DNA of 64,000 nt from Candidatus Dormiibacterota bacterium. GTDB taxonomy: Bacteria; Chloroflexota; Dormibacteria; Dormibacterales; Dormibacteraceae. A program made the position numbers and the translations under genes. The stretch covers positions 1-64,000 of the forward strand of contig JAMXLM010000033.1 of the NCBI GenBank assembly GCA_024280995.1, in the 5' to 3' direction. Under the pieces are notes generated by a model, which saw only the letters and a list, made by a program, of their open reading frames with translations, was not told the origin of the DNA and searched no databases. Position 1 is the stretch's first letter, and each line of letters starts with the position of its first letter. This document shows positions 25,473-44,581 of this stretch, piece by piece.

Positions 25473-25520
25473 GAGGGGCCCCCGCGAAATCACGCCGAAG
25501 GCTCCGATTTCGTGGGGATT
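25473..25520. repeat. Palindromic repeat element, copy 1
   Basis: Arms 25480-25491 and 25506-25517 pair over 12 positions (one G.U pair). The loop contains a further GCC-GAA-GGC stem. A second copy is at 44521-44572 with an inverted but still pairing middle base pair (GGC-GAA-GCC). This copy covers the last codons of the aminotransferase (PTKSEPSA) and its stop, and sits 10 bases from the start of the downstream oxidoreductase. GGGGCCCC precedes the left arm in both copies. Confidence 0.85.
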
Positions 25521-26626
25521 ATGGCTGCGACCTTTCGCACCGCGTCGACGATCCGATCGAGGTCCGAGTCGCTCAGGCCCGGGTGCACGGGGAGCGAGAG
25601 GACGTGAGCCGCGGCGTGCTCCGAGACGGGCATCGAGACATCGCCGTAGCCCAAACCCACGTACAGCGGCTGCCGGTGCACCGGGATCGGGTAATGAACC
25701 GCCGTTCCGACGCCACGCTCTCGCAGCCCCGCCTGGAACCGGTCGCGGTCTCCCTCGATCAGGACCGTGTACTGGTGGTACACATGGTGGAAGCCGGGCC
25801 GCTCACGCGGCGTCGTGACGCCGGGAGTGCCGGCCAGGCCTTCGTCGAGCAGCGAGGCGTTCCGGCGACGGATCTCGTTCCAGCGATCGAGCTTCTTCAG
25901 CTGCGCGCGGCCGATCGCCCCGGCGATGTCCGTCATCCGGAAGTTGAAGCCGAGGATGTCGTGGTGGTATCGCTCGGACGCGCCATGCTGGCGAAGCTTG
26001 GTCACCATGTCCGCGACGTGGCCGTCGTCGGTCGTCACCATCCCGCCCTCGCCCGTGGTGATGTTCTTGGTGGGATAGAACGAGAAGGTCGCGCTCACGC
26101 CCATGGCGCCGGCCCGGTGGGCGCCGATGGCGGCGCCGTGCGCCTGGCACGCGTCTTCGATGAGGACGACCCCATGCTTGTCGGCGATCTGGCGCAGCTC
26201 GGGGATCGCGGCCGGTTGTCCGTAAAGGTCGACGGGCATGAGGACCTTCGTCCGCGGCGTGATGGCGGCCTCGACCTTCGCCGGGTCGACGCAGTACGTG
26301 TCCTCCTCGATGTCCACGAACACCGGCCGCGCGCCGGCGAACAGCGCTGCGTTCGCGGACGCCACGAACGTGAACGGGCTGGTGATGACCTCGTCGCCTT
26401 CTTTGACTCCGTGGGCGAGCATCAGCAGGTGCAAAGCGGCGGTGCCGGAGTTCACCGCGACGGCGTGCTTCACGCCACACCAGGCCGCGAACTCTCGCTC
26501 GAAAGACTCGACGATCGGACCCTGCGCCAGCTGTCCGCTGTCGAGGACCGCCATCACGGCTTGCTTCTCCTCCTCGCCGATCTGGGGCGCCGCGATGGGA
26601 ATCGTCTTCAGAGCGTCCAAAGCCAC
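25490..26626 (-). CDS. DegT/DnrJ/EryC1 sugar aminotransferase, WbpE/WlbC-like
   Basis: 378 residues, GTG 26626, 6 bases after the upstream stop. PLP enzyme: AVNSGTAALHLLMLAHGV, VLIEDACQAHGAAIG, Schiff-base Lys in SFYPTKNITTGEGGMV, and the hairpin FRMTDIAGAIGRAQL. In the WbpB/WlbA context it would transfer an amino group to the 3-keto sugar. The last ~8 residues are encoded by the palindromic repeat at 25473-25520, so the natural C-terminus may have been altered by the repeat's insertion. Confidence 0.87.
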   Translation of the reverse strand: MALDALKTIPIAAPQIGEEEKQAVMAVLDSGQLAQGPIVESFEREFAAWCGVKHAVAVNSGTAALHLLMLAHGVKEGDEVITSPFTFVASANAALFAGARPVFVDIEEDTYCVDPAKVEAAITPRTKVLMPVDLYGQPAAIPELRQIADKHGVVLIEDACQAHGAAIGAHRAGAMGVSATFSFYPTKNITTGEGGMVTTDDGHVADMVTKLRQHGASERYHHDILGFNFRMTDIAGAIGRAQLKKLDRWNEIRRRNASLLDEGLAGTPGVTTPRERPGFHHVYHQYTVLIEGDRDRFQAGLRERGVGTAVHYPIPVHRQPLYVGLGYGDVSMPVSEHAAAHVLSLPVHPGLSDSDLDRIVDAVRKVAAIIPTKSEPSA

Positions 26627-26632
26627 CTCATG

Positions 26633-27703
26633 TTATGGATTGACATCCCTCCAGGAAGACAACGCATCGACGATGCGTTCGGCCGCGTGACCATCACCGA
26701 AGAGATCGCGCGAGGGATCCGCGGCACGAGCATTCCGGATCGCGGCGGCGATGCGATCGCTGTCTGTGCCGACGAGCTGGTTCCAGCCCGCGGCGACGGT
26801 CTCGGTCCACTCGGTGGTGTCGCGCAGGGTGACGCACGGGACACCGCCGAAGTAAGCCTCCTTCTGGACGCCACCGGAGTCCGTGGCGATGACGGCGGCG
26901 CAATCCTCGAGCGCGAGCATCTCCAGGTAGCCGACAGGGTCGATCAATCTGACGTTTGGGCCGGGCGAGACGCCATTCGAGCTGAGGGCTGCCGCTGTCC
27001 GGGGATGGACGGGAAACACGACCTCGCGCCCGGCTTCGCCGGCGCCTTTTAGAATCGCGCGGAGGCGGGCCGGATCGTCGACGTTCTCGGCCCGATGGAC
27101 GGTCATCAGGACGTAGCCCTTCGGCTCCAGGCCCAGCTCAGCCACGATGCCCGAGGACTTCGCGGCGACGTCGCGGTTCTGGAGGAAGGCGTCGAACATC
27201 ACATCGCCTACCATCCGCACGCCTTTCGTCACGCCCTCGCGCGCAAGGTTGGCGACCGCGGTATCCGTGGGGCACAGCAGCAGGTCGCTCACGTGGTCGG
27301 CGACGACCCGGTTGATCTCCTCCGGCATCCGGCGGTCGTAACTGCGGAGGCCGGCCTCGACGTGCGCGACGGGGATGTGCAGCTTCGCGCCGGCGAGCGC
27401 ACCGGCCAGGGTCGAGTTGGTGTCGCCGTAGACGAGAATCCAGTCCGGCTTCTGCTCGATTGCGACTTCCTCGATGCCGGGCAGCATCGCGCCGGTCTGG
27501 GCGCCGTGCCGGCCGGAGCCGACCTCGAGGTTGAGATCGGGCGCGGGGAGGTTGAGCTGGCGAAAGAACAGGTCGGACATGGCATCGTCGTAGTGCTGTC
27601 CGGTATGAAGTAGGAACTCTTGATGCTGAAGGCGCAGGACACGCGAAACCGGTGCGGCTTTGATGAACTGCGGACGCGCACCGACGATCGTGAGCACCTT
27701 CAT
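26633..27703 (-). CDS. wecB: Non-hydrolysing UDP-N-acetylglucosamine 2-epimerase (WecB/WbpI family)
   Basis: 356 residues from ATG 27703; an in-frame ATG at 27718 lies inside the likely -10 box, so 27703 is preferred. Signature VGARPQFIKAAPVSR, HTGQHYDDAMSDLFF, VYGDTNSTLAGAL, HVEAGLRSYDRRMPEEINR and TDSGGVQKEAYFGGVPCV are all present, with the catalytic Asp, Glu and His positions of the family. It interconverts UDP-GlcNAc and UDP-ManNAc, or the 2,3-diacetamido uronate analogue when acting as WbpI. First gene of the operon 27703 to 24422. Confidence 0.92.
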   Translation of the reverse strand: MKVLTIVGARPQFIKAAPVSRVLRLQHQEFLLHTGQHYDDAMSDLFFRQLNLPAPDLNLEVGSGRHGAQTGAMLPGIEEVAIEQKPDWILVYGDTNSTLAGALAGAKLHIPVAHVEAGLRSYDRRMPEEINRVVADHVSDLLLCPTDTAVANLAREGVTKGVRMVGDVMFDAFLQNRDVAAKSSGIVAELGLEPKGYVLMTVHRAENVDDPARLRAILKGAGEAGREVVFPVHPRTAAALSSNGVSPGPNVRLIDPVGYLEMLALEDCAAVIATDSGGVQKEAYFGGVPCVTLRDTTEWTETVAAGWNQLVGTDSDRIAAAIRNARAADPSRDLFGDGHAAERIVDALSSWRDVNP

Positions 27704-27710
27704 GGCGGCA

Positions 27711-27718
27711 ACTATCAT
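27711..27718. promoter_or_regulatory. Overlapping divergent -10 boxes between the wecB-like and GT4 genes
   Basis: Plus strand TATCAT (27713-27718) lies 11 bases before ATG 27730. Minus strand GATAGT (27716-27711) lies 7 bases before ATG 27703. The two hexamers share four positions, so one AT-rich patch can serve both directions. Both mRNAs would be almost leaderless. No good -35 on either side. Confidence 0.5.
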
Positions 27719-27729
27719 GGCGGCACTGC

Positions 27730-28971
27730 ATGACTGACCGCGGCTTGCGGATCATGTTTCTGACGCACTACTTCCCACCCGAGATCGGCGCTCCGCAAGC
27801 CCGAATGTTCGAGCTCGCGCGAAGACTCGACGAGCTCGGCGACACCGTCACGGTGGTCACCGCGTTTCCGAACTACCCCACGGGGATCGTCCACGAGGGC
27901 TACCGCGGACGCTTCGCCATGGAAGAGCGGATGGACGGCGTCCGCGTGCTCCGGCGCTGGGTGTTCGCAACCCCCAACTCCGGCTTTTTCAAACGGATCC
28001 TGAACTGGCTGTCGTTCGTGGCCTCGTCGCTGACGGCCGCGCGAAAGGTGGGTCCGGTCGACGTGATGTTCGTCCAGTCGCCGCCCCTCCCCATCGGCCT
28101 CGCGACGCTCGCCTACGCGCGCATCAAGCGCGCGCCGTTCGTCTTCAACGTGAGCGACATCTGGCCGCAATCGGCGGTCGAGCTTGGGGTGCTCCGCAGC
28201 AAGCTCGCGATCAAGCTCGCCGAGATGCTCGAGATGCACATCTACCGGCGCGCGGCTCGGGTGACCGTCCCGACGCCGGGCATGCTCGAGCGCCTCGCGG
28301 CGCGAGGAGTGCCTCGCGAGAAGCTGGTGCTGCTCACCAACGGCGTCGACACCGCGCTTTACCAGCCACAACCGCCCGACGCGGACCTGGCCTCGCGGCT
28401 TGGTTTCGACGGCCACAAGGTGTTCCTTTACGCAGGCACGCACGGTCTTTCCCAGGGCCTGGACGTGATCCTCGAGGCCGCGAAGATCACGAAGAACCCA
28501 GACGTGCTCTACGTCCTGGCCGGCGAGGGAGCGGACAAGGCCGCGCTGGTCGCCAAGGCAAAGTCCGAAGGCATCGCGAACGTCCGGTTTCTTCCCAACC
28601 AACCGAAGGCGTCGATGCCCGCGCTGCTCAACTCGACCTACGCCGGCATCATCTCGCTGCGTCCGCTGGACCTCTTTCGCTCCGCGTTTCCATCAAAGAT
28701 GTTCGAGTCGATGGCCGTCGGCCAACCGCTCGTGGCGGCGCTCTGGGGCGAAGCCGCGGAGATGGTCCGGACCGCGGAATGCGGCGTGGTCACCGAGCCG
28801 GGCGACGCGAGCGAGCTGCGTGACGCGGTGGAGTCGCTGGCCGGCGACCCGCAGCTGGCGCGCGAGATGGGAATGCACGGGCGCGAGTACGTCGCCGAGC
28901 ATTACAACCGCGCCAAGATCGCGGTACGGCTGCACGAGCTGCTGCGGGAAGTGGTGCGCTCGCGAAGATGA
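27730..28971 (+). CDS. GT4 family glycosyltransferase (WbuB-like)
   Basis: 413 residues, ATG 27730. N-terminal THYFPPEIGAPQARMFELAR is the hallmark of WbuB/WcaI-type GT4 enzymes. Other features: FPNYPTGIVHEGYRGRF, FNVSDIWPQSAVELG, NGVDTALYQP, FLYAGTHGLSQGLDVILEAA, and the nucleotide-binding C-terminal region with a Glu-rich loop. It likely adds the second sugar to the lipid-linked primer made by the phosphoglycosyl transferase encoded next (4-base overlap). Donor unknown; an FucNAc- or QuiNAc-type sugar would fit the family. Confidence 0.87.
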   Translation: MTDRGLRIMFLTHYFPPEIGAPQARMFELARRLDELGDTVTVVTAFPNYPTGIVHEGYRGRFAMEERMDGVRVLRRWVFATPNSGFFKRILNWLSFVASSLTAARKVGPVDVMFVQSPPLPIGLATLAYARIKRAPFVFNVSDIWPQSAVELGVLRSKLAIKLAEMLEMHIYRRAARVTVPTPGMLERLAARGVPREKLVLLTNGVDTALYQPQPPDADLASRLGFDGHKVFLYAGTHGLSQGLDVILEAAKITKNPDVLYVLAGEGADKAALVAKAKSEGIANVRFLPNQPKASMPALLNSTYAGIISLRPLDLFRSAFPSKMFESMAVGQPLVAALWGEAAEMVRTAECGVVTEPGDASELRDAVESLAGDPQLAREMGMHGREYVAEHYNRAKIAVRLHELLREVVRSRR

Positions 28972-29570
28972 AGCGCGCCTTCGACGTCGTCGTCTCGTCG
29001 CTCGGTCTCGCGCTGACCTCCCCGATCATCCTGGTCGCGGCGATCGCGGTGAAGTCCGGCTCGCGGGGGCCGGTCTTCTTCAACGGTCCGCGCGTCGGGC
29101 GCGACGGCGTCGTGTTCCGTATGCACAAGCTGCGCACGATGAGCGCCGGCGCCGACAAGGCAGGTCCCGCGGTGACGGCGGGCGATGACACGCGCGTGAC
29201 GCCGGTCGGACGTTTCCTCCGCCGTACCAAGATCGACGAGCTGCCGCAGCTCTTGAACGTGGTGAAGGGCGAGATGAGCCTGGTAGGGCCGCGGCCAGAG
29301 CATCCGGACTACGTCGCCCACTACACCGAGGAGCAGCGACGTCTGCTGGCGGTGCGACCCGGCATCACGGGGCCGGCGACCCTTGCCTACATCGACGAGG
29401 AGAGGCTGCTCAGCGGCGGTGGCGGGGAGGCGCGCTACATCGAAGACGTGATGCCACAGAAGCTCGCCCTCGAGCTGCAGTACGTCAAGCGCGCGGGATT
29501 CGTGAGCGACCTGTCGATCCTCGCGCGGACTGCGGCGCGCGTCGTGCGAAGGTCCTTCGTCCGCTACTAG
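28968..29570 (+). CDS. Small phosphoglycosyl transferase (PglC-like, monotopic)
   Basis: 200 residues, ATG in an ATGA overlap. The bacterial sugar transferase fold: an N-terminal re-entrant hydrophobic helix (VVSSLGLALTSPIILVAAIAV), the catalytic Asp-Glu in RRTKIDELPQLLNVVKGEMS and LVGPRPEHPDY. Its short length lacks the four N-terminal helices of WbaP, matching PglC, which places a phospho-bacillosamine-type sugar on undecaprenyl phosphate. The WbpM/PglF-type dehydratase and aminotransferase genes nearby (29567-33981) could make its substrate. The 3' end overlaps the convergent aminotransferase by 4 bases. Confidence 0.9.
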   Translation: MKRAFDVVVSSLGLALTSPIILVAAIAVKSGSRGPVFFNGPRVGRDGVVFRMHKLRTMSAGADKAGPAVTAGDDTRVTPVGRFLRRTKIDELPQLLNVVKGEMSLVGPRPEHPDYVAHYTEEQRRLLAVRPGITGPATLAYIDEERLLSGGGGEARYIEDVMPQKLALELQYVKRAGFVSDLSILARTAARVVRRSFVRY

Positions 29571-30751
29571 AGCTGGTTCGCCTTGACGATGTCGGTGACC
29601 GCTTCGATGACGTCGGCGACGTCATCGTCTGAATGCGCGGGACTCAACGGAAGCGAGAGCATGCGCTCGAAAGCCCCCTGCGCGACCGGGAACTGTTCGG
29701 GTCGCAGCTGATATCTGTCCCGGTAATAGATGTGCTCGTGGATCGGGATGAAGTGCACGCTCGCGCCGACGTTGCGCTTGCGCATCTCATCGATGAATTC
29801 GTCGCGGCCGATTCGCAACCGATCGGGACGCAGGCGGAGCAGGTAGATGTGCCAGGCGCTGTCGACCTCGGGCCGCACGCTCGGAGTCTCGAGCGCGTCG
29901 AGCCGGCCGAGGGTCTCGTCGTACTGGGCGACGATCGCGCGCCGGCGCGCCTGCATCGCGTCGAGGTGCTCGAGCTGATGAAGCCCGATCGCCGCCTGCA
30001 GGTCGGGCATGTTGTATTTGAATCCGGGCAGCACGACGTCGTAGCGCCACGAGCCCTCCGACGTGTAACGCTTGAACGCGTCGCGGCTCATCCCGTGGAG
30101 GCTCCAGACGCGGGCCTGGTCGACCAGGTCTGGCGGGCCGGTGAGCATGCCCCCCTCGCCGGTCGTCAGGTTCTTGGTCGCGTAGAAGGAGAAGGCGACG
30201 AGGTTGGGCACGCCGTCCGCGCCTTCGGCGGGTGCACCGATCATCCGACCGTGCAGGCGCGCGGGCAGCGCGTGCGCCGCGTCCTCGATCACCGCGAGCC
30301 CATGCCGGCGCGCGATGTCGTAGATCGCATCCATGTCCGCGGGGTGTCCGTAGAGGTGCACCGGCAGGATCGCTTTCACGCCCGGCGTTCGGTGCACGGC
30401 CGCCTCGACCTGCTCGGGGTCGATGTTGAGCGTGTCCGGCTCGACGTCGACGAGCACTGGTCGCGCGCGCTGGTGCTCGATGACGTGGATCGTGGAGACG
30501 AAGGTCATCGTGGTGCTGATCACGGCGTCGCCCTCGCCGATGCCCAGTGCGGCGAGCGCGATGTGCATCGCGGAGGTCGCGGAGTTCACGGCGAGCGCAG
30601 CGGGCGCGCCCGTGTAGGCCCGGAACTCCTCCTCGAAACGCCGCGTCCGATCGCCTGTCGTCAGCCAGCCACTGCGCAGGGTCTGCACGACCTCGTCGAC
30701 CTCGTCATCACCGATGAGCGGCGGAGCGAAATGGAGAAACGTCGAGCGCAT
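29567..30751 (-). CDS. DegT/DnrJ/EryC1 sugar aminotransferase, ArnB/PglE-like
   Basis: 394 residues, ATG 30751 sharing one base with the upstream stop (TGATG). FAPPLIGDDEVDEVVQTL at the start, NSATSAMHIALAALGIG, VIEDAAHALPARL, and the Schiff-base Lys in SFYATKNLTTGEGGML. The C-terminal HFIPIHEHIYYRDRY is typical of 4-keto-sugar aminotransferases such as ArnB and PglE. It is the last gene of an operon with a WbpM/PglF-type dehydratase, an acetyltransferase and a methyltransferase, so conversion of a UDP-4-keto-6-deoxy sugar to a 4-amino sugar is likely. Confidence 0.87.
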   Translation of the reverse strand: MRSTFLHFAPPLIGDDEVDEVVQTLRSGWLTTGDRTRRFEEEFRAYTGAPAALAVNSATSAMHIALAALGIGEGDAVISTTMTFVSTIHVIEHQRARPVLVDVEPDTLNIDPEQVEAAVHRTPGVKAILPVHLYGHPADMDAIYDIARRHGLAVIEDAAHALPARLHGRMIGAPAEGADGVPNLVAFSFYATKNLTTGEGGMLTGPPDLVDQARVWSLHGMSRDAFKRYTSEGSWRYDVVLPGFKYNMPDLQAAIGLHQLEHLDAMQARRRAIVAQYDETLGRLDALETPSVRPEVDSAWHIYLLRLRPDRLRIGRDEFIDEMRKRNVGASVHFIPIHEHIYYRDRYQLRPEQFPVAQGAFERMLSLPLSPAHSDDDVADVIEAVTDIVKANQL

Positions 30752-31443
30752 CAGCCCGCCGGCTTGCGGAGAAGGCCGACCAGGTGGCTGCGGAGCGGGG
30801 GAACGGCCGCCAGCACCGGGTACGCAGCGGGCGTCGCCACGCCGAGACGCCGGGCAAGCGGAGGCGCCAGCGTGACGGTGCTCAGCGAGCCGCGGAGACC
30901 TGGAAACAGCTCGGCGACGCGCTCGCGCGGCACCGCCTTCACGTTCGGGTTGGAGACGCTGTCGTAACGCACGTCGTACCAGAGCAACCCCCCGCCCGGC
31001 TTCAGCACGCGGGTGATCTCGGCGGCGACGTTGGCCGCCATCGTGCGGTCCAGGATCGAGCTGAAGATCGTGATCGCCATGACGAGGTCGAAGCTGCGGT
31101 CCTCGAAATCGAGCTTCTCGGCGTTGCCAAGACGAAAGTCGATACCGGGATAGGCCTTTCGCGCCGCCTCGACCCGGTGGGCCAGCAGGTCGACCCCGGC
31201 CAGGAACGAAGGCTTCGCCCCCACCTCGGTCAGCCAGGCCAGCTCCACCCCGGCGCCCGAGCCGACCTCGAGTGCGCGCCTCTCCCCCAGCGGGACCCAA
31301 CCCGCTCGCTCCAGGAGGCGCCGGAACGCCCGGCGGCGCTCGGCGAGGACGTAGCGATTGCCGGCGTTGGCGAGGCTCCAGCGCTCGCCGGCGCGCGCCT
31401 CCATCTCCTCGTAGGCGCGCGCGATGCGGTCCGTTTCGGTCAA
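30751..31443 (-). CDS. Class I SAM-dependent methyltransferase
   Basis: 230 residues from TTG 31443, in a TTGA overlap with the upstream stop; a longer upstream open frame would run antisense-free through the acetyltransferase gene and is not credible. SAM motif ALEVGSGAGVELAWLTEVG near residues 57-75, acidic strand LAGVDLLAHRVEAAR, NAEKLDFEDRSFDLVMAI, and VLKPGGGLLWYDVRYDS. It resembles UbiE-type enzymes of O-antigen loci; the target is probably the sugar or lipid-linked glycan made by neighbouring genes. Confidence 0.82.
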   Translation of the reverse strand: MTETDRIARAYEEMEARAGERWSLANAGNRYVLAERRRAFRRLLERAGWVPLGERRALEVGSGAGVELAWLTEVGAKPSFLAGVDLLAHRVEAARKAYPGIDFRLGNAEKLDFEDRSFDLVMAITIFSSILDRTMAANVAAEITRVLKPGGGLLWYDVRYDSVSNPNVKAVPRERVAELFPGLRGSLSTVTLAPPLARRLGVATPAAYPVLAAVPPLRSHLVGLLRKPAG

Positions 31444-32042
31444 GGCCGCGCCGCCGCCTCCGTGGGCTCGGCGATCTCGAACGACCTCCCGTCGTGCGGG
31501 CACGTGTAGGCCGATCCGCGTCTGCGCAGGGGCCGGCCGCAGTCGCATGCAAAGCCGCGCAGCCGGGCCGGGTTGCCGGTGACGATCCCGCGTTCCGGCA
31601 CGTCGCGGGTCACCACCGCACCGGCGCCGACGAGCGCCATCCGGCCCACCGTCACGCCGGGAAGGACGATCGCGCCGCCGCCGATCGCGGCGCCGTATCG
31701 GATCGAGCCCTCGCCGGCCTCCCAATCGGCGTCGGACTTGGGAGAGCCGTCCGGATTGATCGCGCGGGGATGCAGGTCATTCAGCAGCATCGCCCCGGGG
31801 CCGATGAAGACGCCGTCCTCGAGGTTGAAGCCGTGAAAGACGAACGCGCCGTTCTGGATCTTGCAGAAGTCCCCGACGGTCACCCCCTTGTCGACATATG
31901 AGCCCTTGCCGAGGATGCATTCCCGCCCGACGCGCGCGCCTTCGCGCACCTGGGCCTGGTGCCACACCTTCGTGCCCATCCCCAAAGTCGCCTCGGCGGA
32001 GACGTCCGCCGACGGATGGACGAACGCGGAGTGTTCTGTCAC
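31440..32042 (-). CDS. Hexapeptide-repeat acetyltransferase (WbpD/WlbB-like) with cysteine-rich tail
   Basis: 200 residues, ATG 32042. Left-handed beta-helix with VHPSADVSAEATLGMGTKVW, CILGKGSYVDKGVTVG and FCKIQNGAFVFHGFNLEDGV, the pattern of WbpD/WlbB/QdtC-type N-acetyltransferases acting on UDP-amino sugars. The C-terminal ~30 residues are unusual: CDCGRPLRRRGSAYTCPHDG looks like a small zinc ribbon (C-x-C...C-x-x-H/D). It begins 20 bases after the dehydratase gene. It could serve either the 3-acetamido uronate pathway or the 4-amino sugar pathway of its own operon. Confidence 0.85.
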   Translation of the reverse strand: MTEHSAFVHPSADVSAEATLGMGTKVWHQAQVREGARVGRECILGKGSYVDKGVTVGDFCKIQNGAFVFHGFNLEDGVFIGPGAMLLNDLHPRAINPDGSPKSDADWEAGEGSIRYGAAIGGGAIVLPGVTVGRMALVGAGAVVTRDVPERGIVTGNPARLRGFACDCGRPLRRRGSAYTCPHDGRSFEIAEPTEAAARP

Positions 32043-32061
32043 TCCGTCCTATCTTGGCGCT

Positions 32062-33981: not shown

Positions 33982-33993
33982 GGGCAGTCGTCC

Positions 33994-34022
33994 AGACTAA
34001 GGCAAGGGCGCATAGTTCTCAA
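33994..34022 (-). promoter_or_regulatory. Candidate sigma70-type promoter of the dehydratase operon
   Basis: Minus strand TTGAGA (34022-34017), 17-base spacer, TAGTCT (33999-33994). The -10 ends 12 bases before ATG 33981. Confidence 0.5.
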
Positions 34023-34051
34023 ATATGGGAACGTGTAGGTGGCCTGCGCGT

Positions 34052-34080
34052 TTGACGGTCGAATGGACCGCGGATAACAT
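34052..34080 (+). promoter_or_regulatory. Sigma70-type promoter for the WbaP-like gene
   Basis: TTGACG (34052-34057), 17-base spacer, TAACAT (34075-34080). The predicted start near 34087 leaves a leader of about 50 bases before ATG 34140. Diverges from the dehydratase promoter. Confidence 0.55.
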
Positions 34081-34139
34081 GCGCGTGCAGGCGGCCTGAC
34101 CAAATTTTGGCACGTCGACAGGCGGCTGCGAAGGCGCCC

Positions 34140-36871: not shown

Positions 36872-36914
36872 CACACTTTCAGCTTGCCACACGTTCTCTT
36901 AGGGGAGCGAACAG

Positions 36915-38252
36915 GTGGTGATGACGCGCGCGAACCTGGCCGATCGGACAGCGGAAGCCGTCGCCGACTATGGCGTCGCGGCCATCGTGCTGACGCTGCC
37001 GCTCGAGTTCACGACGAAGCTGCTGCACCAGCAGCTCAGCCGGTTCGTGATCGTCGCCGTCGCGGCCGCCTTCGCCTACCTGGTCGTGCGGCGCCTGCGC
37101 ACGGTGGCGATTCCCAGATCGGCGTCCGTGTGGCTGCTGCTCGCGCTGATCGCCGTCTCGCTCGCCAGCTGGCTTCTCACGCGCGCCCCGGGAAGCGGCA
37201 GCTCGGTCAGCGACATCGTTCTGTACCCGGTGGTCGGGATCCTGATCGCGAACCTGGTCGTGACCCGCGAGGATCACCGCAGGGCGTGGATCGCGTTCGT
37301 CATCTCCGCGCTTGGCGTGTCAGCGCTTGGGCTCGGCCTCGACCTTGCTCACGCGCAGATCTGGGCGCCGAATCCCCTGGTCGCACACCGGCTCAACATC
37401 ACCTTCGCCGACCCGAACATCACGGCCCGCTTCCTCACGCTGGGCGCTTGCGCCGCCGTGCTCCTCTTCGCGGCCCGTCAGGCTCCGGCTTGGCTGACTG
37501 TGGCCACCGCCGCGGCATGCGGAATCGTGCTCCCGCTCACCTACTCCCGGTCCGGTCTGGCGCTGTTCGTGCTGATGGTTGCGCTGATGGTGTTCATCGC
37601 GTTCAACCACCGGCGCGCCGCCGCCATCGCAGTGGTCGGTCTGCTTGCGTTCGGGCTCTCCACCACCATCAACCCCGACACCCGAGCGCGAGCGGCCGAC
37701 GCCTCGTCAACGGTCATCGACCTCGTGACCAGAAACCATCACGCCGCCTCGTCGTCGCCCGCGATCCAGAGCGGAGTAGCGATCGAGGACAACCGCGTCT
37801 ACCTCGTGGCGGCCGGCGTGAAGATGTTCGTCGACCACCCGGTCTTCGGCGTCGGATTCGGTGGCTACCAGCACGCCCTCCTCACGACTTACGACCGTTT
37901 CCTTCCCTCCGGCTACACCGACAGCGTCTCCCACACCGCCGTTGTCACCACGCTCGCCGAGCAGGGGGTGTTTGGCGCGCTGCTCCTGTTCGCGTTCTTG
38001 CTCCAGCTGGCCCGCGAGGCGTGGGCGGCGCGGGCGCGCCGCGACGATTGGGCGGTGTGGGCCGCACTGGCCGCCGCGATGGTCGTGCCGATCTTCCTGT
38101 ACAGCCAGTTCGAGGGACGGTTCTTCTCGGAGCCGTACCTGTGGCTGGCGCTCGGGATGTTTTACGGTGCGCAGATGGTCGCGGTCCGCGCCGGCGTCGT
38201 GCTCGAACGCAAAGCGGTCGCGAGCCGTCGAGGCTCCGTCGAAGTCGCCTGA
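36915..38252 (+). CDS. O-antigen polymerase/ligase (Wzy/WaaL) family membrane protein
   Basis: 445 residues; GTG 36915 is preceded by GGGGAG at 7 bases; GTG 36918 and ATG 36921 are near alternatives. About ten hydrophobic segments, LTYSRSGLALFVLMVALM, and a long outer loop (~255-340) with MFVDHPVFGVGFGGYQ and VSHTAVVTTLAEQGVFGAL. These are Wzy_C hallmarks. Fourth protein of this kind in the window; this one sits among the genes of the second glycan set. Confidence 0.82.
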   Translation: MVMTRANLADRTAEAVADYGVAAIVLTLPLEFTTKLLHQQLSRFVIVAVAAAFAYLVVRRLRTVAIPRSASVWLLLALIAVSLASWLLTRAPGSGSSVSDIVLYPVVGILIANLVVTREDHRRAWIAFVISALGVSALGLGLDLAHAQIWAPNPLVAHRLNITFADPNITARFLTLGACAAVLLFAARQAPAWLTVATAAACGIVLPLTYSRSGLALFVLMVALMVFIAFNHRRAAAIAVVGLLAFGLSTTINPDTRARAADASSTVIDLVTRNHHAASSSPAIQSGVAIEDNRVYLVAAGVKMFVDHPVFGVGFGGYQHALLTTYDRFLPSGYTDSVSHTAVVTTLAEQGVFGALLLFAFLLQLAREAWAARARRDDWAVWAALAAAMVVPIFLYSQFEGRFFSEPYLWLALGMFYGAQMVAVRAGVVLERKAVASRRGSVEVA

Positions 38253-38258
38253 CCCCGG

Positions 38259-38264
38259 TATCCT
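38259..38264 (+). promoter_or_regulatory. Candidate -10 box of the UDP-sugar dehydrogenase gene
   Basis: TATCCT exactly 7 bases before GTG 38272, predicting a leaderless mRNA. Confidence 0.5.
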
Positions 38265-38271
38265 GCGGGCG

Positions 38272-39585
38272 GTGACAACGATCTCGGTGGTCGGGCTCGG
38301 CAAGATCGGGCTGCCGCTCGCGGCGCAGTTTGCGAGCAAAGGCATGACCGTGATCGGGTGCGACACCCTGCCCGACGTGGTGACGTCGGTCAACGCCGGC
38401 AGATCGCACATCCGCGAGGAGGACGGCCTCGACGAGGCGGTGGCCTCTGCGGTGGCCGCCGGCAGGCTGTCGGCCACGACGGACACGACCGACGCCGTGA
38501 AGAGGTCCGACGTCGTCGTGGTCATCGTGCCGCTGATGGTCGGCCCCGACCGGGCGATGGACTACCGCAACCTCGACGCCGCCACGCGATCCATCGGTCG
38601 CGGTCTGCGGCCGGGAACGCTCGTGATCTACGAGACGACGCTACCGGTCGGCACCACGCGGCGGCGCCTCGGGCCGATGCTGCAAGAGGCGTCGGGCCTG
38701 GAGCCTGGGACCCGGTTCCATCTCGCGTTCAGCCCCGAGCGGCTCTACGCAGGGCGGATCTTCGCGGACCTCCGCAAGTACCCGAAGATAGTGGGCGGGG
38801 TCGATGCGGCCAGCACCGAGGCCGCGGTCGCCTTCTACCGGAGCGTCCTCGACGCCGAGGTGTGGCCCGTCGAGAACACCGAGACGGCCGAGTTCGCCAA
38901 GCTCGCGGAGACCACCTACCGCGACGTCAACATCGCCCTGGCGAATCAGCTTGCGCTGTACGCCTCGAGCCGCGACGTCAACGTGAGCGAGGCCTTCAGG
39001 GCCGCGAACTCGCAGCCGTTCTCGCACATCCACCGGCCGAGCCTGGGCGTGGGCGGCCACTGCATCCCCGTGTATCCACACTTCCTGCTCGGCGACGCGG
39101 CCGACGGCGAGCTCAGCCTGGTGCGCGACGGCCGGACCACAAACGACGCGATGGCCAAAGTCGGCCTCCGCGAGCTCGAGCGCCTGCTCGGCGGCCTTCG
39201 CTCGCGGCGAATCCTCGTCCTGGGCGCCTCGTACCGGGAGAACGTCAAGGAGCTCGCGTTCTCGACCGCCTTCCCGGTGGTCGACATGCTCCACAAGGCG
39301 GGCGCGGAGGTCCTCCTGGCCGACCCTCACTTCGCGGACGGGGAGCTGCAGGCTTTCGAGGCCGAGGTCGTCGACGACCTTGACCGCGTGGCGAGCAAGG
39401 GTGTCGACGCGATCGTCGTCCAGGCCTGGCACGAGGAGTTTCGCGACCTCGACTGGGGACGTTTCGGCGGCTTGAAGGTGGTGCTGGACGGGCGAGGCGC
39501 GGTCGATCCAGAGGCCGTCCGGCAAGCCGGCGCGAGCTACATCGCGATCGGCATCTCGGAGACCCGAGCGGCGTCCCCAAAGTAA
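38272..39585 (+). CDS. UDP-N-acetyl-hexosamine 6-dehydrogenase (WbpA/WecC-type)
   Basis: 437 residues, GTG 38272. NAD-binding VVGLGKIGLPLAAQF, ETTLPVGTTRRRLG, FSPERLYAGRIF, EFAKLAETTYRDVNIALAN with the catalytic Lys region, and the nucleophile Cys in GVGGHCIPVYPHF. C-terminal UDP-binding domain with LGASYRENVKELAFS. The FSPER and EFAKL blocks favour UDP-GlcNAc/UDP-ManNAc dehydrogenases over UDP-glucose dehydrogenase. It would give the UDP-GlcNAcA needed by the WbpB/E/D/I-like enzymes encoded at 24422-32042. The 3' end overlaps the convergent GT4 gene by 49 bases. Confidence 0.88.
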   Translation: MTTISVVGLGKIGLPLAAQFASKGMTVIGCDTLPDVVTSVNAGRSHIREEDGLDEAVASAVAAGRLSATTDTTDAVKRSDVVVVIVPLMVGPDRAMDYRNLDAATRSIGRGLRPGTLVIYETTLPVGTTRRRLGPMLQEASGLEPGTRFHLAFSPERLYAGRIFADLRKYPKIVGGVDAASTEAAVAFYRSVLDAEVWPVENTETAEFAKLAETTYRDVNIALANQLALYASSRDVNVSEAFRAANSQPFSHIHRPSLGVGGHCIPVYPHFLLGDAADGELSLVRDGRTTNDAMAKVGLRELERLLGGLRSRRILVLGASYRENVKELAFSTAFPVVDMLHKAGAEVLLADPHFADGELQAFEAEVVDDLDRVASKGVDAIVVQAWHEEFRDLDWGRFGGLKVVLDGRGAVDPEAVRQAGASYIAIGISETRAASPK

Positions 39586-40544
39586 GCCTGTTCGAGCAGA
39601 CGTAGCTGTCGCTCGAAGCTGTGGTTTCTGCGCACCCACGCTCGTCCTTCGCGGGACAGGTTTTCGAGTCGCCTCGAGTCGTCCTTCAGGCGCTCGATCT
39701 GGGCGATGAGCTCGTCGGCGCTGTAGGAGGACACGACCGGCGGCTTGTCGCCGGGATACAGGTTCCGATCGATGCCGCTGATCAGCGGCCTTCCGGCCGC
39801 CATGGCCTCGAGCTCCGAAAGGCCGAGGGCGCCCTGCTCCATCTGACCCACCACAAGGTCGAACCCTTCGAGGAAGGCGCCGACCTCATCGTGAGGCACC
39901 GGCGGCACGAAGCGCACGACGTCGCCGTACCGCTCCCGCAGGACGCCGGTCAGCGGACCCCACGCCAGCGCCGTCACCTCCATCGTGGCCGCCAGGTGGC
40001 GCACGGCGGGGAACACAAACCGGACGCCCTTCACAGGGTCGAGACGGAGGAAGATCACGATCGATCGCACCTTGGTCGGAGCCGCGCCGGAGCCGGTGCG
40101 GACGCTGATCGGATTGGGTAGATAGACCACCTTGTCCTCGAAGCGGTGGATGAACGTCTCCAGGTTCGGGGTGACGTAGAAGATGCGCTCGGCGCGCTCG
40201 AGGACACGCCGGTTCAGGCGAAACACGCCGGGCGCGTTCACCTGGACATGGAGGTCGGAGCCGTGCGCCTGGATGAAGAACGGCCGCCGCGCGAGCAGGC
40301 CGACGATCCCGCGAGGGACCCAGTGGATGTGGATGACGTCGTACCGGCCCCGGCGCAGCCGGAGCACCACCGGTAGGTAGAGCGCGAGCCGGATCGGGAG
40401 GGTGAGCGCCTTCGCCAGCCAGCTCCACCGCGCCCCGAACGCGGGCATCCGGATGTGGTCCACGTCGTGGCCCGCGGCGCGCAGGATCCTGGCCTGGGTG
40501 GCCCCCACTCCGGCGACGTCGTGGACGATCGCGATTCTCGCCAT
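39537..40544 (-). CDS. GT4-like glycosyltransferase
   Basis: 335 residues, ATG 40544. GT-B fold: N-terminal IAIVHDVAGVGATQARIL, strand DVIHIHWVPRGIVGLLA, HGSDLHVQV, and the C-terminal donor site GALGLSELEAMAAGRPLISG with the conserved Glu. Slightly short for GT4. It probably transfers a sugar to the growing lipid-linked glycan in the cytoplasm. Its end is antisense to the last 16 codons of the dehydrogenase gene. Confidence 0.8.
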   Translation of the reverse strand: MARIAIVHDVAGVGATQARILRAAGHDVDHIRMPAFGARWSWLAKALTLPIRLALYLPVVLRLRRGRYDVIHIHWVPRGIVGLLARRPFFIQAHGSDLHVQVNAPGVFRLNRRVLERAERIFYVTPNLETFIHRFEDKVVYLPNPISVRTGSGAAPTKVRSIVIFLRLDPVKGVRFVFPAVRHLAATMEVTALAWGPLTGVLRERYGDVVRFVPPVPHDEVGAFLEGFDLVVGQMEQGALGLSELEAMAAGRPLISGIDRNLYPGDKPPVVSSYSADELIAQIERLKDDSRRLENLSREGRAWVRRNHSFERQLRLLEQAYFGDAARVSEMPIAM

Positions 40545-40557
40545 CTCAAGCTAGAAC

Positions 40558-40579
40558 GCCTGATCGGGCGCCATCAGGC
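40558..40579. other. Short intergenic hairpin
   Basis: Perfect 7-base arms GCCTGAT and ATCAGGC separated by 8 bases, just upstream of the GT4 start (minus) and of the next plus gene's promoter. No T-tract, so an operator or 5' structure is as likely as a terminator. Confidence 0.45.
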
Positions 40580-40613
40580 AAATCTCGGTCCCATACGACG
40601 CGGTTCCCCGCCG

Positions 40614-40619
40614 CATAAT
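40614..40619 (+). promoter_or_regulatory. Candidate -10 box of the anchored Ig-like protein gene
   Basis: CATAAT, 10 bases before GTG 40630. Confidence 0.45.
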
Positions 40620-40629
40620 CTCCCCCCGA

Positions 40630-41178
40630 GTGAAGAAAGCCTTCCTGTTGGCGCTGGCGGCGTTCATCGCCACGGCGATCGGTGCTCAGGCGAGCACGAC
40701 CCCGACCATCAGCGCCTCACCGGCCAGCGGCACGGTGGGCCAGTCCGTCACGTTCACGGCGACTTTCACATCCTCCTGTCTGACCGGCGTCAGCCATTAC
40801 TTCACGATCGACGGCAAGACATACCGCGACCCGCTGTCGCGGAGCGGACAGACCTTCACCGAAAAGCTCTCCATCGCCTCGCTTGGAGCCGGCACGCACA
40901 CCGTCGGCTACGTCTGGTACGTGACCGGGAGCACGACCTGCAAAGGCAGCGCGGCCATCTCGTACAACGTCGCGGCCGCTCCCACCCCTACGCCGAGCCC
41001 GTCCCCATCTCCGAGCCCGAGCCCTTCGCCCTCACCTTCGGCCAGCCCAACCCCCCTGCAGCTGACGTCGTCCAACACGTCGAGCGGTTCGAGCGGCGCA
41101 CTCGGCTACCTCGGCGGCGCGCTGATCGTGGTGACCATCATCGCCGGCGTCGCGCTCGCGATTTTCGGCCGGCGGTAG
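40630..41178 (+). CDS. Small secreted, membrane-anchored Ig-like protein with Pro/Ser stalk
   Basis: 182 residues, GTG 40630. Layout: signal peptide (KKAFLLALAAFIATAIGAQA), an Ig-like domain (~26-115) with two cysteines (SSCLTG and TTCKGS) able to form a disulfide, a stalk of PSPSPS repeats (~116-142), then a hydrophobic anchor LGGALIVVTIIAGVALAIF and a basic tail FGRR. This is the plan of a surface protein held in the membrane or wall, like sortase substrates but with no LPxTG. Function unknown. Not obviously part of either flanking operon. Confidence 0.75.
   Translation: MKKAFLLALAAFIATAIGAQASTTPTISASPASGTVGQSVTFTATFTSSCLTGVSHYFTIDGKTYRDPLSRSGQTFTEKLSIASLGAGTHTVGYVWYVTGSTTCKGSAAISYNVAAAPTPTPSPSPSPSPSPSPSPSASPTPLQLTSSNTSSGSSGALGYLGGALIVVTIIAGVALAIFGRR
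40981..41059 (+). repeat. Low-complexity CCGAGC/CCGTCC-type repeat coding for the Pro/Ser stalk
   Basis: Imperfect 6-base units encoding Pro-Ser pairs. Such tracts can change length by slippage, which would alter the stalk but keep the frame. Confidence 0.7.
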
Positions 41179-41185
41179 GCGCCTC

Positions 41186-42394
41186 CTAAGAAAGGGCCTG
41201 CTCCAGGTCGGCGATCAGGTCGGCCACGTCCTCGACCCCGACCGACAGCCGGATGAGCCCGTCGCCCACGCCCGACCGCTGCCGTTCCGCCGCGGGAATC
41301 GACGCGTGCGTCATTCGCGCCGGGTGCTCGGCAAGCGACTCGACCGCGCCGAGTGACTCCGCGAGCGCAAAGATCTTCAAGCGCTCAAGCGTGCGAAACG
41401 CCGTCGCCTCGTCGGCGACCTCGAAGCTGACCATTCCGCCGAACATGCGCATCTGCTTCGCGGCCACGCCCCGCTGAGGGTTGGAGTCGAGGCCGGGGTA
41501 GTACACGCGCTTCACAGTCTTGTTGCTCGTGAGCGCCGTCGCCAGCTCCATCGCGTTGTCGCTCTGCCGCTCGACGCGCAGGGCGAGCGTCTTCACGCCG
41601 CGCAGCAGGAGCCAGCAGTCGAACGGTGACGGCACGGCGCCAACCGCGTTCTGGTGGAAGCGCAGCTGTCGCTCGAGGTCGTCGTTGTTCGTCATGATCG
41701 CCCCGCCCACAACGTCGCTGTGGCCGCCGATGTACTTGGTCGCGCTGTGCACGACCACGTCGGCGCCGAGGTGCAGGGGCTGCTGCAGGTAGGGCGTGGC
41801 GAAGGTGTTGTCCACGCAGACCATCGCGCCCCTGCTGTGCGCGATCTCGCTGACCGCGTCGATGTCGACGACCCGCAGCAGCGGATTCGTCGGCGACTCG
41901 AGCCAGAGCATACGCGTGCGGTCGGTGATCGATCGTTCGACGACGTCGAGGTCGGTCGCGTCGATGCCGGTGAACTCGAGGCCGTAGCGCTTCAACACCT
42001 TGTCGAAGAGCCTGAAGGTCCCGCCATACACGTCCTCCATGTAGACGACGTGGTCGCCGGGGTTCAGCAGCAGCATGAGCGTGGTCTCCGCGCCCAGGCC
42101 GGAGGCGAACGCCAGGCAGTGCCTGGCCGCCTCGAGCGCGGCCAGGCACTCTTCGAGGGCGTTGCGCGTCGGGTTGCCGGTGCGGCCGTACTCGAAGCCC
42201 TTGTGGCGGCCGACGCCCTGCTGGGCAAACGTGGTCGCCATGTGGATCGGCTGCACCACAGCCCCGGTCTCCGGGTCGGGTCCCTGTCCGACGTGAAGGG
42301 CTCTTGTCGAGAACCCCCACTCTCCTTCCCCGCCGTGCGGGGAAGGTGGCCCGGTCCGCGACGCGGACGCGGCCGGATGGGGAGTGTCAGCCAC
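41186..42394 (-). CDS. Cystathionine gamma-lyase/gamma-synthase family PLP enzyme
   Basis: 402 residues, GTG 42394 overlapping the preceding gene's stop by 8 bases. Cys/Met-metabolism fold: QPIHMATTFAQQGVG, FEYGRTGNPTRNALE, ASGLGAETTLMLLL, Schiff-base Lys in VVHSATKYIGGHSDVVGG, and ESLGAVESLAEHPARMTH. Following cystathionine beta-synthase in one operon, cleavage of cystathionine to cysteine (lyase) is the more likely direction. The first ~25 residues (TPHPAASASRTGPPSPHGGE) are encoded by a hairpin repeat rather than by conserved sequence, and probably form a disordered extension. Confidence 0.88.
   Translation of the reverse strand: MADTPHPAASASRTGPPSPHGGEGEWGFSTRALHVGQGPDPETGAVVQPIHMATTFAQQGVGRHKGFEYGRTGNPTRNALEECLAALEAARHCLAFASGLGAETTLMLLLNPGDHVVYMEDVYGGTFRLFDKVLKRYGLEFTGIDATDLDVVERSITDRTRMLWLESPTNPLLRVVDIDAVSEIAHSRGAMVCVDNTFATPYLQQPLHLGADVVVHSATKYIGGHSDVVGGAIMTNNDDLERQLRFHQNAVGAVPSPFDCWLLLRGVKTLALRVERQSDNAMELATALTSNKTVKRVYYPGLDSNPQRGVAAKQMRMFGGMVSFEVADEATAFRTLERLKIFALAESLGAVESLAEHPARMTHASIPAAERQRSGVGDGLIRLSVGVEDVADLIADLEQALS
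42324..42368. repeat. REP-like double hairpin inside the start of the gamma-lyase gene
   Basis: Perfect 10-base arms CCTTCCCCGC (42324-42333) and GCGGGGAAGG (42337-42346), then a second hairpin GTCCGCG-a-CGCGGAC (42354-42368). Translated on the minus strand it gives the SPHGGEGEWG-type peptide seen wherever REP-like elements of GC-rich bacteria are translated. Confidence 0.65.
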
Positions 42395-43751
42395 GGCCGC
42401 GGTGAGCGACGAACTCGAGGAGGTCGGCCCGCGTGATCACGGCAACCGGCGTCTCGGCCTCGACCACCAGCACCGCCTGCTCGCCGCGGAGCAGCGGCTC
42501 GAAGGCGTCGTCGAGCGAAGAGTCGACCGCGACCTGGCTGAGCGGCGCGTCCATCGCCGCCGAGACCGCCGTGGTCACGACCGCGGGGTCGCGGTAGACG
42601 CGGTCGAGCAGCGTGCGCTCCTGCAGCGTGCCGACGACGCCCCGGCCGTTCGCCTCCTCGACGACCGGCAGCTGCGAGATGCCGTAGCGCTGCATGAGAT
42701 CGATCGCCTCTCCGACCGACATCCCCGCCTCGACCGTGACGAGCTGCGGCAAGCCTTTCGGATGCGAGTCGAGGACCTCGCGGATGCGCACCGCGCCCAG
42801 GCGGGCAAGGTAGCCGTTCTGCCGCATCCACTCGTCGCTGAAGAACTTGCTCAGGTAGTTGCGGCCCGTGTCGGGGAACAGGACGACGATCACGTCGTCG
42901 GGGCCGCGGTCCGCCGCGACCTCCAGGGCGGCGTGCAGCGCAAGCCCGGACGAACCACCGACCAGGATCCCCTCCTCACGCGCGAGCCGGCGTGCGGCGA
43001 CGAAGGATTCCTTGTCCGTGACCTGGACGATCTGGTCGACCATCTTCAAATCCATGGTCCCGGGTATGAAGTCCTCGCCGACGCCCTCGACCTTGTACGG
43101 CGCGATGGGTCCGGAGTAAAGCGATCCCTCCGGGTCGGCGCCGACGATGTGGACGGAGGGCTTCTGCTCCTTGAGGTATTTGGCGACCCCGCTGATGGTG
43201 CCGCCTGTGCCCATGCCCGCGACGAAGACGTCGATCTTGCCTTCGGTTTGATCCCAGATCTCGGGGCCGGTCGTCTGGTAGTGCGCCTCCGGGTTGCGCG
43301 GGTTGAAGTACTGGTTGGGCTGGAACGCGCCCGTGATCTCGCGAGCCAGGCGATCGGCGACCGAGTAGTACGACTGCGGCGATTCGCGCTCGACGTTGGT
43401 CGGGCAGACGACGACCTCGGCGCCGTACGCCCTCAGGAGGCTGATCTTCTCCGGGGACATCTTGTCCGGCATGACGAAGACCATCTTGTAGCCCTTGATC
43501 GCCGCCACCATGGCGAGGCCGTGGCCCGTGTTGCCGGAGGTCGGCTCGATGATGGTGCCGCCAGGCCGCAGCTTGCCGGTGCGCTCCGCCTCCTCGATCA
43601 TGGTCAGGCCGATCCGATCCTTGACGCTGCCGCCCGGGTTGAGCTCCTCGAGCTTGGCGAGGACGGTGGGCTTGACGCCAGCGGTGACCTTCTGGAGCCG
43701 GACCATGGGGGTGTTCCCGACGAGGTCGAGAATCGAGTTGGAGAACTTCAA
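42387..43751 (-). CDS. Cystathionine beta-synthase
   Basis: 454 residues from TTG 43751, in a TTGA overlap with the upstream stop. PLP fold-type II: SILDLVGNTPMVRLQ, NPGGSVKDRIGL with the Schiff-base Lys, PTSGNTGHGLAMVAA, and GTGGTISGVAKYL. A C-terminal CBS (Bateman) pair from about residue 330 (LPQLVTVEAGMSVGEAIDL; TRADLLEF). No haem-binding N-terminal extension. It condenses serine with homocysteine, or acts as a cysteine synthase-like enzyme; the pairing with the gamma-lyase supports reverse transsulfuration. Confidence 0.9.
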   Translation of the reverse strand: MKFSNSILDLVGNTPMVRLQKVTAGVKPTVLAKLEELNPGGSVKDRIGLTMIEEAERTGKLRPGGTIIEPTSGNTGHGLAMVAAIKGYKMVFVMPDKMSPEKISLLRAYGAEVVVCPTNVERESPQSYYSVADRLAREITGAFQPNQYFNPRNPEAHYQTTGPEIWDQTEGKIDVFVAGMGTGGTISGVAKYLKEQKPSVHIVGADPEGSLYSGPIAPYKVEGVGEDFIPGTMDLKMVDQIVQVTDKESFVAARRLAREEGILVGGSSGLALHAALEVAADRGPDDVIVVLFPDTGRNYLSKFFSDEWMRQNGYLARLGAVRIREVLDSHPKGLPQLVTVEAGMSVGEAIDLMQRYGISQLPVVEEANGRGVVGTLQERTLLDRVYRDPAVVTTAVSAAMDAPLSQVAVDSSLDDAFEPLLRGEQAVLVVEAETPVAVITRADLLEFVAHRGRG

Positions 43752-44581
43752 CGCACCCTCAAGCGCGATTCTATCCCCCGATCCTCGGAGTGCTCCGCTC
43801 CGAACCACCGGAAGAACACAACCCCGGCTGCCACGCCCAGCGTCACCTTGCCGAACACCATCAGCACCGCACCGGCGATCGTCTGGTCGATGACCGCCGT
43901 GAACCCGGCGATGAGCCGCGGCACGTGCTCGTAGTACGTGTAGAAGGTCACGCGCGAGAAGATCAATGCAAGCGCCACCCCGTCCTGCGGCAGGGTGGCG
44001 ATGAGCATGTAGACGAGCTTTGCGCCCGGCGACATCGTCCACCGGTTGTGCACGGACGTCGCATCGATGATCGGCCAGTAGAGAAGGAGCCCACTCGCGA
44101 TGAACATCACGTGCTCCAGCACGTGCACGCCCTCGTTGCGCAGCGTGACGTCATACAGGAAAGGAAGGTGCCAGCCGATCATGATCACGGCCGAGATGAC
44201 CAGCGCGGGGACCGGCTCGGTGATCGCTCGCACTCCGGGAACCCGCGCAAGGCGGCCGGCCATCTCGCGCGACAGGCCGAGCAGCATCAACGGCGGCGCG
44301 ACGAACGCGAGCAGGACGTGCTGGAGCATGTGCACGCTGTCCAGGTAGTAGTCGCTGATCGGATCGATCGGCGTCTCGAGCGCCAGCCAGAGCGTGAACA
44401 GGCCGAGGAAGAAGAAGGCGGTGTGCTTGCGCTCGGCGTCGGGCACGCTCCGGGCGAGCAGCGCGTGGCCGACATAGAGAACGAGGAGGCCGGCGTAGAC
44501 GGTGGGGTCGAACGGCCAGGTTATGAGGGGCCCCCGCGAAATCACGGCGAAGCCTCGGATTTCGCGGGGATAAAAAATCAT
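43748..44581 (-). CDS. CtaG-like cytochrome c oxidase assembly/copper membrane protein
   Basis: 277 residues, ATG 44581 in an ATGA overlap with VKOR. Seven or so hydrophobic segments with histidines placed as in the Caa3_CtaG family: SVHMLQHVLLAFV, MIGWHLPFLYDV, HVLEHVMFIASGLLLYW and DATSVHNRW. In Bacillus, CtaG is needed to build the copper site of caa3 oxidase. No oxidase subunit gene is in the window. The first ~20 residues are encoded by palindromic repeat copy 2, so the native start may lie further in (for example at GTG in VISRGPLI). Confidence 0.85.
   Translation of the reverse strand: MIFYPREIRGFAVISRGPLITWPFDPTVYAGLLVLYVGHALLARSVPDAERKHTAFFFLGLFTLWLALETPIDPISDYYLDSVHMLQHVLLAFVAPPLMLLGLSREMAGRLARVPGVRAITEPVPALVISAVIMIGWHLPFLYDVTLRNEGVHVLEHVMFIASGLLLYWPIIDATSVHNRWTMSPGAKLVYMLIATLPQDGVALALIFSRVTFYTYYEHVPRLIAGFTAVIDQTIAGAVLMVFGKVTLGVAAGVVFFRWFGAEHSEDRGIESRLRVR
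44521..44572. repeat. Palindromic repeat element, copy 2
   Basis: Perfect 12-base arms CCCCGCGAAATC (44532-44543) and GATTTCGCGGGG (44558-44569). The loop has a GGC-GAA-GCC mini-stem where copy 1 has GCC-GAA-GGC. GGGGCCCC precedes the left arm. It lies within the 5' end of the CtaG-like coding sequence, next to the VKOR stop. Confidence 0.85.

Follow-up and report, generated by a model that had tools for sequence, protein, structure and literature searches.

Mobile palindromes tend to be regarded as neutral, or else as features of messenger RNA (mRNA) 3′ ends. The available part of PMC3733652 reports that some repetitive extragenic palindromes (REPs) overlap coding ends or are located at N-termini, that GTAG ends often give a stop codon, that CGTC REPs come without a dedicated transposase and that GTAG REPs occur in Chloroflexi. 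Rickettsia palindromic elements, in the available part of PMC10969869, are about 150 bp long and contribute a peptide to whichever gene they enter. For translational coupling, RNA unfolding is one of two published models, and a predicted structure right after the stop codon is reported to accompany weaker coupling (PMC12548453, available part). Here we describe a 43-nt hairpin element with two copies in a 64,000-nt stretch of DNA (the window; JAMXLM010000033.1, positions 1 to 64,000, part of contig C33) from a Candidatus Dormiibacterota bacterium (GCA_024280995.1; 3.02 Mb in 46 contigs). Genome comparison brought out dispersed copies, empty sites, nesting, a covarying hairpin, a strand bias and an excess of the hairpin's GUG frame in downstream genes. 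Our preferred reading, which we judge rather likely, is that of a REP-like, non-autonomous, mobile palindrome of 43 nt plus a few flanking bases, living mainly in one Candidatus Dormibacterota family, tolerated there and partly adopted as a donor of start codons.

We term "sense" the element strand that is usually co-directional with genes, and "plus" the opposite strand, which has the GGGG foot. The sense consensus is CCCC-A/G-CGAANTC, N-GAG-S-C-UNC-G-S-C-GUG-A-NUUCG-C-GGGG, then R-CCCC, usually U, and gives 43 bases with a 12-position stem and a 3-pair mini-stem as the apex; the sense-strand apex reads GUGA, that is, a start (GUG) and a stop (UGA). The GGGG foot is followed mostly by C or T, the right flank is AT-rich and the plus-strand apical loop is usually C-GNA-G, a type of loop that forms unusually stable DNA mini-hairpins.

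The original prediction, made from the window alone, described two hairpin copies that differ by a swapped mini-stem (GCC/GGC) and by a C/T change in the outer arm, and proposed a structured repeat family with a covarying stem. Both differences were confirmed on reading the sequence, and the family is borne out in agreement by a covariance-model search (seed, 37 copies of the hairpin element) and by an arms-only search of 41 genomes, which left both variable stem positions and the loop free because search-motif bias had to be reduced. The arms-only set comprises 76 exact arm matches among the matches listed; extra host-genus copies were fetched, and four further copies were excluded as too close to an end. 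The inner variable stem position is Watson–Crick in 72 of the 76 (shuffled mean 21.8, maximum 35) and occurs as all four pair types (AT 25, CG 25, TA 11, GC 11), and the middle pair of the mini-stem is Watson–Crick in 61 of the 62 copies of common loop length (shuffled mean 40.5, maximum 49). Covariation in the 37 copies exceeded all 500 shuffles and every slid version. Further copies thus exist and their changes keep the stem, which speaks for the proposed family on both counts. Changes on both sides are confined to two pairs; most of the stem is thus maintained by sequence and not by pairing alone. The C/T arm difference is present but does not stand as ordinary drift between pairs, since sense positions 5 and 34 form A.C in 58/76 copies and the opposite strand has G.T or G.U there.

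Paired changes might also arise by mutation. Template switching between the arms of a quasi-palindrome could perfect pairing without selection, and four pair types at one position beside almost unchanged neighbours would fit such a mechanism; it should, however, also repair the A.C/G.T position, still mismatched in those 58 copies, and we regard it as an improbable source of the covariation.

In the host genome, a search with the 17-base left arm, allowing two mismatches at most, hit 14 places, against none for the reversed control. Of the 18 rows that the covariance model returned there, 15 have E < 1e-8; one of the other three is weak (E 0.005), and two are opposite-strand echoes stemming from palindromic copies. 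The host carries about 15 strong copies. A 20-base motif occurred, among the matches listed, in 24 of 61 genomes: 16 of 17 in the host genus, eight of 20 in the rest of the family and none of 24 in other families of the class. The covariance model matched 10 of 201 genomes of the phylum, and a motif scan of named genomes gave at least 112 stretches, all in Candidatus Dormibacterota/Dormibacteraeota or "Chloroflexi" bins; copy totals in relatives are lower bounds. Rfam 15 gave no match at the gathering score for the window and 20 loci, and viral contigs, scanned for carriage by phages, gave no exact match to one 23-base element pattern.

Empty sites in relatives, at both window copies and at two more sites, show on comparison of the loci that the element was inserted. 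At the ctaG site of copy 2 it is present in four of the 15 loci read and missing from 11, seven of which have a recognisable overlap of the VKOR stop with the ctaG start; one further locus was unreadable. The site of copy 1 is empty in all five homologous loci among the matches listed, three at 69-70% protein identity and two at 51%. The NrfD-mrp junction is filled in the host genome and empty in the 12 other orthologous junctions read (G016 stands outside this count, and one locus was unreadable); the element is also absent from a more distant homologue in G015. At the CHAD-gene junction, two loci are filled and 11 empty among those read, with one unreadable. Copies are also nested inside copies (in L133 at about 3538, in L048 at about 7412 and in L077), all three within the GAGTTCG of the outer copy.

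Placement relative to genes was read with a codon-score caller made for this analysis, which recovers all four genes beside the window copies and errs around 23971-24531 (called genes sum to 95% of the window length). Gene names are from Pfam, and the mrp and miaB-like identities are inferred from domains. The 144 distinct copies placed comprise 85 sense and 20 antisense copies between co-directional genes, 11 divergent, seven convergent, 14 inside genes and seven unclassified; background co-directional gene pairs divide 301:309 on the same comparison. The bias persists with one copy per downstream gene family (60 sense, 20 antisense) and in the arms-only set (46 sense, 19 antisense, 11 mixed; p 0.001), where orientation was judged from the codon scores of both flanks. 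In 30 of these 46 sense copies the upstream stop codon starts 3-12 nt ahead of the hairpin, and in seven it is the hairpin's own UGA.

Rich in GC, close to stop codons and flanked on the right by AT-rich sequence, the hairpin might suggest a bidirectional intrinsic transcription terminator. The element is not enriched between convergent genes (7/123 classified intergenic copies, against 88/796 background gene pairs), most classified copies lie between co-directional genes, and a consensus scan (GC hairpin plus U tract) was negative at both window copies; the terminator reading is hence disfavoured, and we consider it very improbable.

The downstream gene often continues the hairpin's GUG. Its frame was taken from codon scores 60-300 nt beyond the element and is hence independent of start calling; it coincided with the GUG frame in 29 of 57 gene families (p 0.007, one third expected) and, with the same expectation, in 21 of the 34 families of the arms-only set (p 0.0008). 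Across all loci, 46 sense copies open from the apical codon into the gene (44 GTG, one TTG, one ATG), with M-[STNI]-SRGP as the predicted N-terminus in nearly all. In 32 of them no alternative in-frame start occurs upstream before a stop is reached, and 21 of the 32 also have none within the next 15 codons. The mrp-type host gene is among these 21: its old start meets UGA within the element, the GUG frame is closed 12 nt ahead of that codon, and the first start beyond the element GTG lies 33 codons further. The element copy at ctaG in G011 closes the upstream frame as well. We take the downstream genes as real because each of the 10 tested received a Pfam name; they include ribosomal protein L21 (for which upstream starts exist besides the element GTG), RNase J, an inositol monophosphatase family member, S4/pseudouridine synthase, Sua5 and an ArgZ-like enzyme. 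What appears to go beyond the original prediction, on these sequences, is that the element is strand-biased, sits at operon junctions, carries GUGA at its apex and apparently serves as a start codon.

Some sites are shared between genomes. At the miaB-like/mutS junction the element occurs in six genomes with three pair types and equal spacing; sites of this kind are old. Orthologous copies are 91% identical (median, 40 pairs, 12 sites; nested or long copies and a pair whose genes are 95% identical were left out) and third codon positions of the next gene 61%, but the first figure is inflated by motif-found copies and non-independent pairs, and gene conversion could homogenise copies, so the identity supports selection and does not prove it.

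The two window copies, GGGGCCCCCGCGAAATCACGCCGAAGGCTCCGATTTCGTGGGG at 25475-25517 and GGGGCCCCCGCGAAATCACGGCGAAGCCTCGGATTTCGCGGGG at 44527-44569, and their neighbours are as follows.

24422..25462 (-): Gfo/Idh/MocA oxidoreductase (Pfam), downstream of copy 1; retains its own GTG start.
25475..25517 (-): element copy 1, sense = minus; CCCC-A-CGAAATC [GGA] GCC-TTC-GGC [GT] GATTTCG-C-GGGG, then G-CCCC; covariance model (CM) 74.2 bits, E 3.5e-15.
25490..25493 (-): apical GTGA of copy 1; its TGA (25492-25490) is the aminotransferase stop, the first stop, at +25 of the element.
25490..26626 (-): DegT/DnrJ/EryC1 aminotransferase (Pfam), upstream of copy 1; its final codons come from the element.
43748..44545 (-): Caa3_CtaG family gene (Pfam), downstream of copy 2; extent if the element GTG is the start.
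44527..44569 (-): element copy 2, sense = minus; CCCC-G-CGAAATC [CGA] GGC-TTC-GCC [GT] GATTTCG-C-GGGG, then G-CCCC; CM 73.9 bits, E 4.2e-15.
44542..44545 (-): apical GTGA of copy 2; the GTG is in the ctaG frame, which continues I-S-R-G-P-L-I-T-W-P-F-D.
44578..44976 (-): VKOR family gene (Pfam), upstream of copy 2; 8 nt from stop codon to hairpin foot.

The original prediction had placed both copies at coding ends, and correctly so: copy 1 forms the aminotransferase C-terminus, with the DegT-type stop (TGA, 25492-25490, minus strand) in the element, and copy 2 sits at the 5′ end of the Caa3_CtaG gene. In the nearest homologues of the oxidoreductase (69-70% identical), the GTG abuts or overlaps the aminotransferase gene end and there is no element. 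In the host ctaG, an older ATG at 44581 is likewise in frame. As single strands, the element copies fold with z scores, relative to dinucleotide shuffles, of -1.9 to -3.9 as DNA and -2.4 to -4.1 as RNA, and the sense strand of the window copies folds across the GUG at about -22 to -27 kcal/mol.

We propose that the element inserts at tight, often overlapping stop/start junctions and that the sense strand is the survivable one, tolerated because the apex carries UGA and GUG. The upstream gene would end in or just before the hairpin and the downstream gene would start in it, and at many junctions the hairpin GUG would have become the working start, adding an M-[STNI]-SRGP-[LR] tag. With less assurance, we suggest that mobility may be what the hairpin was kept for, its plus strand being mobilised, single and folded, by an enzyme lost or unrecognised; the 5′ GGGG foot tag, the G.T wobble and the GNA triloop of the plus strand would suggest single-strand recognition. 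In the same tentative vein, a ribosome terminating at an operon junction would have to open the hairpin, and by the unfolding model it is plausible that the hairpin couples the two genes. Taken furthest, the element could be a mobile cassette for translation starts: a 43-nt hairpin that transposes onto stop/start overlaps, resupplies UGA and GUG, adds an M-[STNI]-SRGP tag to housekeeping proteins and ties translation of the downstream gene to the ribosome that leaves the upstream one, many operon junctions of one family having been rebuilt by one selfish element. That version is possible, and we advance it tentatively.

Several results weigh against an adopted, mobile start-codon donor. GTG is kept at 36/46 sense junctions against 14/30 elsewhere (p 0.0065), but with one copy per gene family the difference gives p 0.075 (24/34 against 14/30). 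A mixed set has frame 0 open in 43 of the 81 sense copies that carry GTG, against two of seven that have no start codon there (p 0.26). GAG is conserved in 71/76 copies and GTG in 50/76, the downstream gene of copy 1 retains its own start, and precise targeting of stop/start overlaps could yield the strand and frame bias without any adopted function; the inflation of orthologous identity noted above counts on this side too. A Shine-Dalgarno role for the GAGG was considered and dropped: in a first count of 43-nt copies the position was G in 29 and C in seven with the gene in frame 0, against nine G and 14 C in other frames, and the contrast faded with all copies (30/41 against 22/41, p 0.11) and with relatives removed (median p 0.27).

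The traces of mobilisation are also incomplete. No register of target duplication stands out across all copies and no length is fixed. Direct repeats beside the element are barely longer than in shuffled sequence (28/500 shuffles reach them), although single sites look duplicated (CATAA at copy 1; copy 1 and the CHAD-gene site together suggested 5-9 bp). Flanking inverted repeats show no excess for the full element, and a target duplication of constant length, as in a DDE-type miniature inverted-repeat transposable element (MITE), was not found. The original prediction had pointed to REP-associated transposases. This was not upheld, as Y1_Tnp was found neither in the host genome nor in any element-bearing relative among 61 genomes, many of them incomplete bins; Y1 (PF01797) occurs in two of the 61 (bins 59-99% complete), G027 and weakly G037, both without the element. 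A search of 41 genomes for Y2 (IS91-type) yielded a single full match, in G024, and a match of 30 residues in G016, with none in the 14 controls; G024 has one motif place among the matches listed, and no link between Y2 and the element was seen. A REP paired with its REP-associated tyrosine transposase (REP/RAYT) was rejected because neither Y1_Tnp nor the GTAG/CGTC tags were found. The element is a dispersed, short and mostly intergenic palindrome, as REPs are, with a GGGG foot in place of GTAG or CGTC; because the tag differs and no Y1 transposase was found in bearing genomes, we do not file it as a GTAG/CGTC REP.

As an observation apart, 11 Y1_Tnp matches lie in G027, which belongs to the family but lacks the element; REP/RAYT would predict the opposite.

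These results also bear on a purely selfish REP-like repeat, in which an enzyme recognising RTGA overlaps would by itself set strand, spacing and frame; host genes would simply survive the insertion, and no selection would follow. Many empty sites are indeed stop/start overlaps, the three nested insertions all lie in the GAGTTCG of the outer copy, and 14 of the 144 copies lie within called genes. Such a repeat does not readily account for old orthologous copies that remain 91% identical and keep pairing through double changes, nor for the absence of a fixed target or duplication, nor for the higher retention of GTG at sense junctions (not significant after relatives were removed), and we think it rather unlikely. 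Somewhat less likely again is a translational-coupling hairpin kept for regulation, whose fold hides the GUG until the upstream ribosome melts it. The fold of the window copies over the GUG and the upstream stop near the foot or at the hairpin UGA in 37/46 sense copies would suit it, as would RNA unfolding as one of the two coupling models in the available part of PMC12548453. Yet only about half of the sense copies use the GUG frame, structure just past a stop accompanies weaker coupling in that same source, and the sense strand carries the A.C mismatch in 58/76 copies where the plus strand has a G.T wobble, which points to the plus strand or to DNA.

The weaker covariance-model matches define a relative of the palindrome. 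In 18 of 20 stretches read from them, including the distant-family genome G210, a form whose loop has only 3 to 4 bases was present (e.g. GGGGTCCCC..GATTTYGTGGGGTG; L243-L247 in G210, L149, L148, L065, L080 and L248-L260). In the five G210 copies read, the short-loop palindrome directly follows a second hairpin, CCCAGCCGAATC-NNN-GATTCGNCTGGG. For ten copies of a first set, the flanking inverted repeats were longer than in any of 500 shuffles. L149 holds two short-loop copies (about 915-950 and 1005-1040), 90 bp apart and with flanks nearly alike, beside a region that looks like ribosomal-protein genes. Long-apex variants (L004, L010, L025, L037, L054, L073, L124) have 12 to 36 additional bases between NGAGGACC and CGCC, and the ends of the apex are constant.

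On the reading we prefer, a palindrome appears to have become the start codon of genes such as an mrp-type gene and those for RNase J, an S4-domain pseudouridine synthase and an ArgZ-like enzyme, all in a phylum known chiefly through uncultured bins. The family combines clear traces of mobility with no recognised transposase. If the reading holds, filled and empty loci would form a natural before/after series of operon junctions in which to follow how a hairpin affects translation of the gene behind it, and annotated starts and N-termini in element-bearing genomes would need care. Mobile palindromes themselves are already known; what appears new is a hairpin at gene junctions as an apparent source of start codons. 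No description of this repeat was found in open-licence PubMed Central, judged by titles and the start of abstracts, and Dormibacter terms returned nothing.

Set beside the systems described in the available parts of the sources cited, the element resembles REPs (PMC3733652) in its small size, its dispersal, the unpaired tetranucleotide that one foot of the palindrome carries and a frequent position near the 3′ end of the upstream gene, and CGTC REPs in particular in that no dedicated transposase was found. It differs from the REPs described there in its GGGG foot, in having no Y1 transposase in the bearing genomes and in carrying a UGA/GUG overlap at the apex rather than a TAG at the foot; it is also strand-biased, often in the downstream frame and not enriched between convergent genes. 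With Rickettsia palindromic elements (PMC10969869) it shares in-frame insertion of a palindrome in unrelated protein genes; unlike them, by their description, it is 43 nt long and apparently gives a start or stop at a gene junction. As in translational-coupling hairpins (PMC12548453), the fold covers the downstream start region beside the upstream stop, but those are described for single gene pairs, and the element is a dispersed, inserting repeat.

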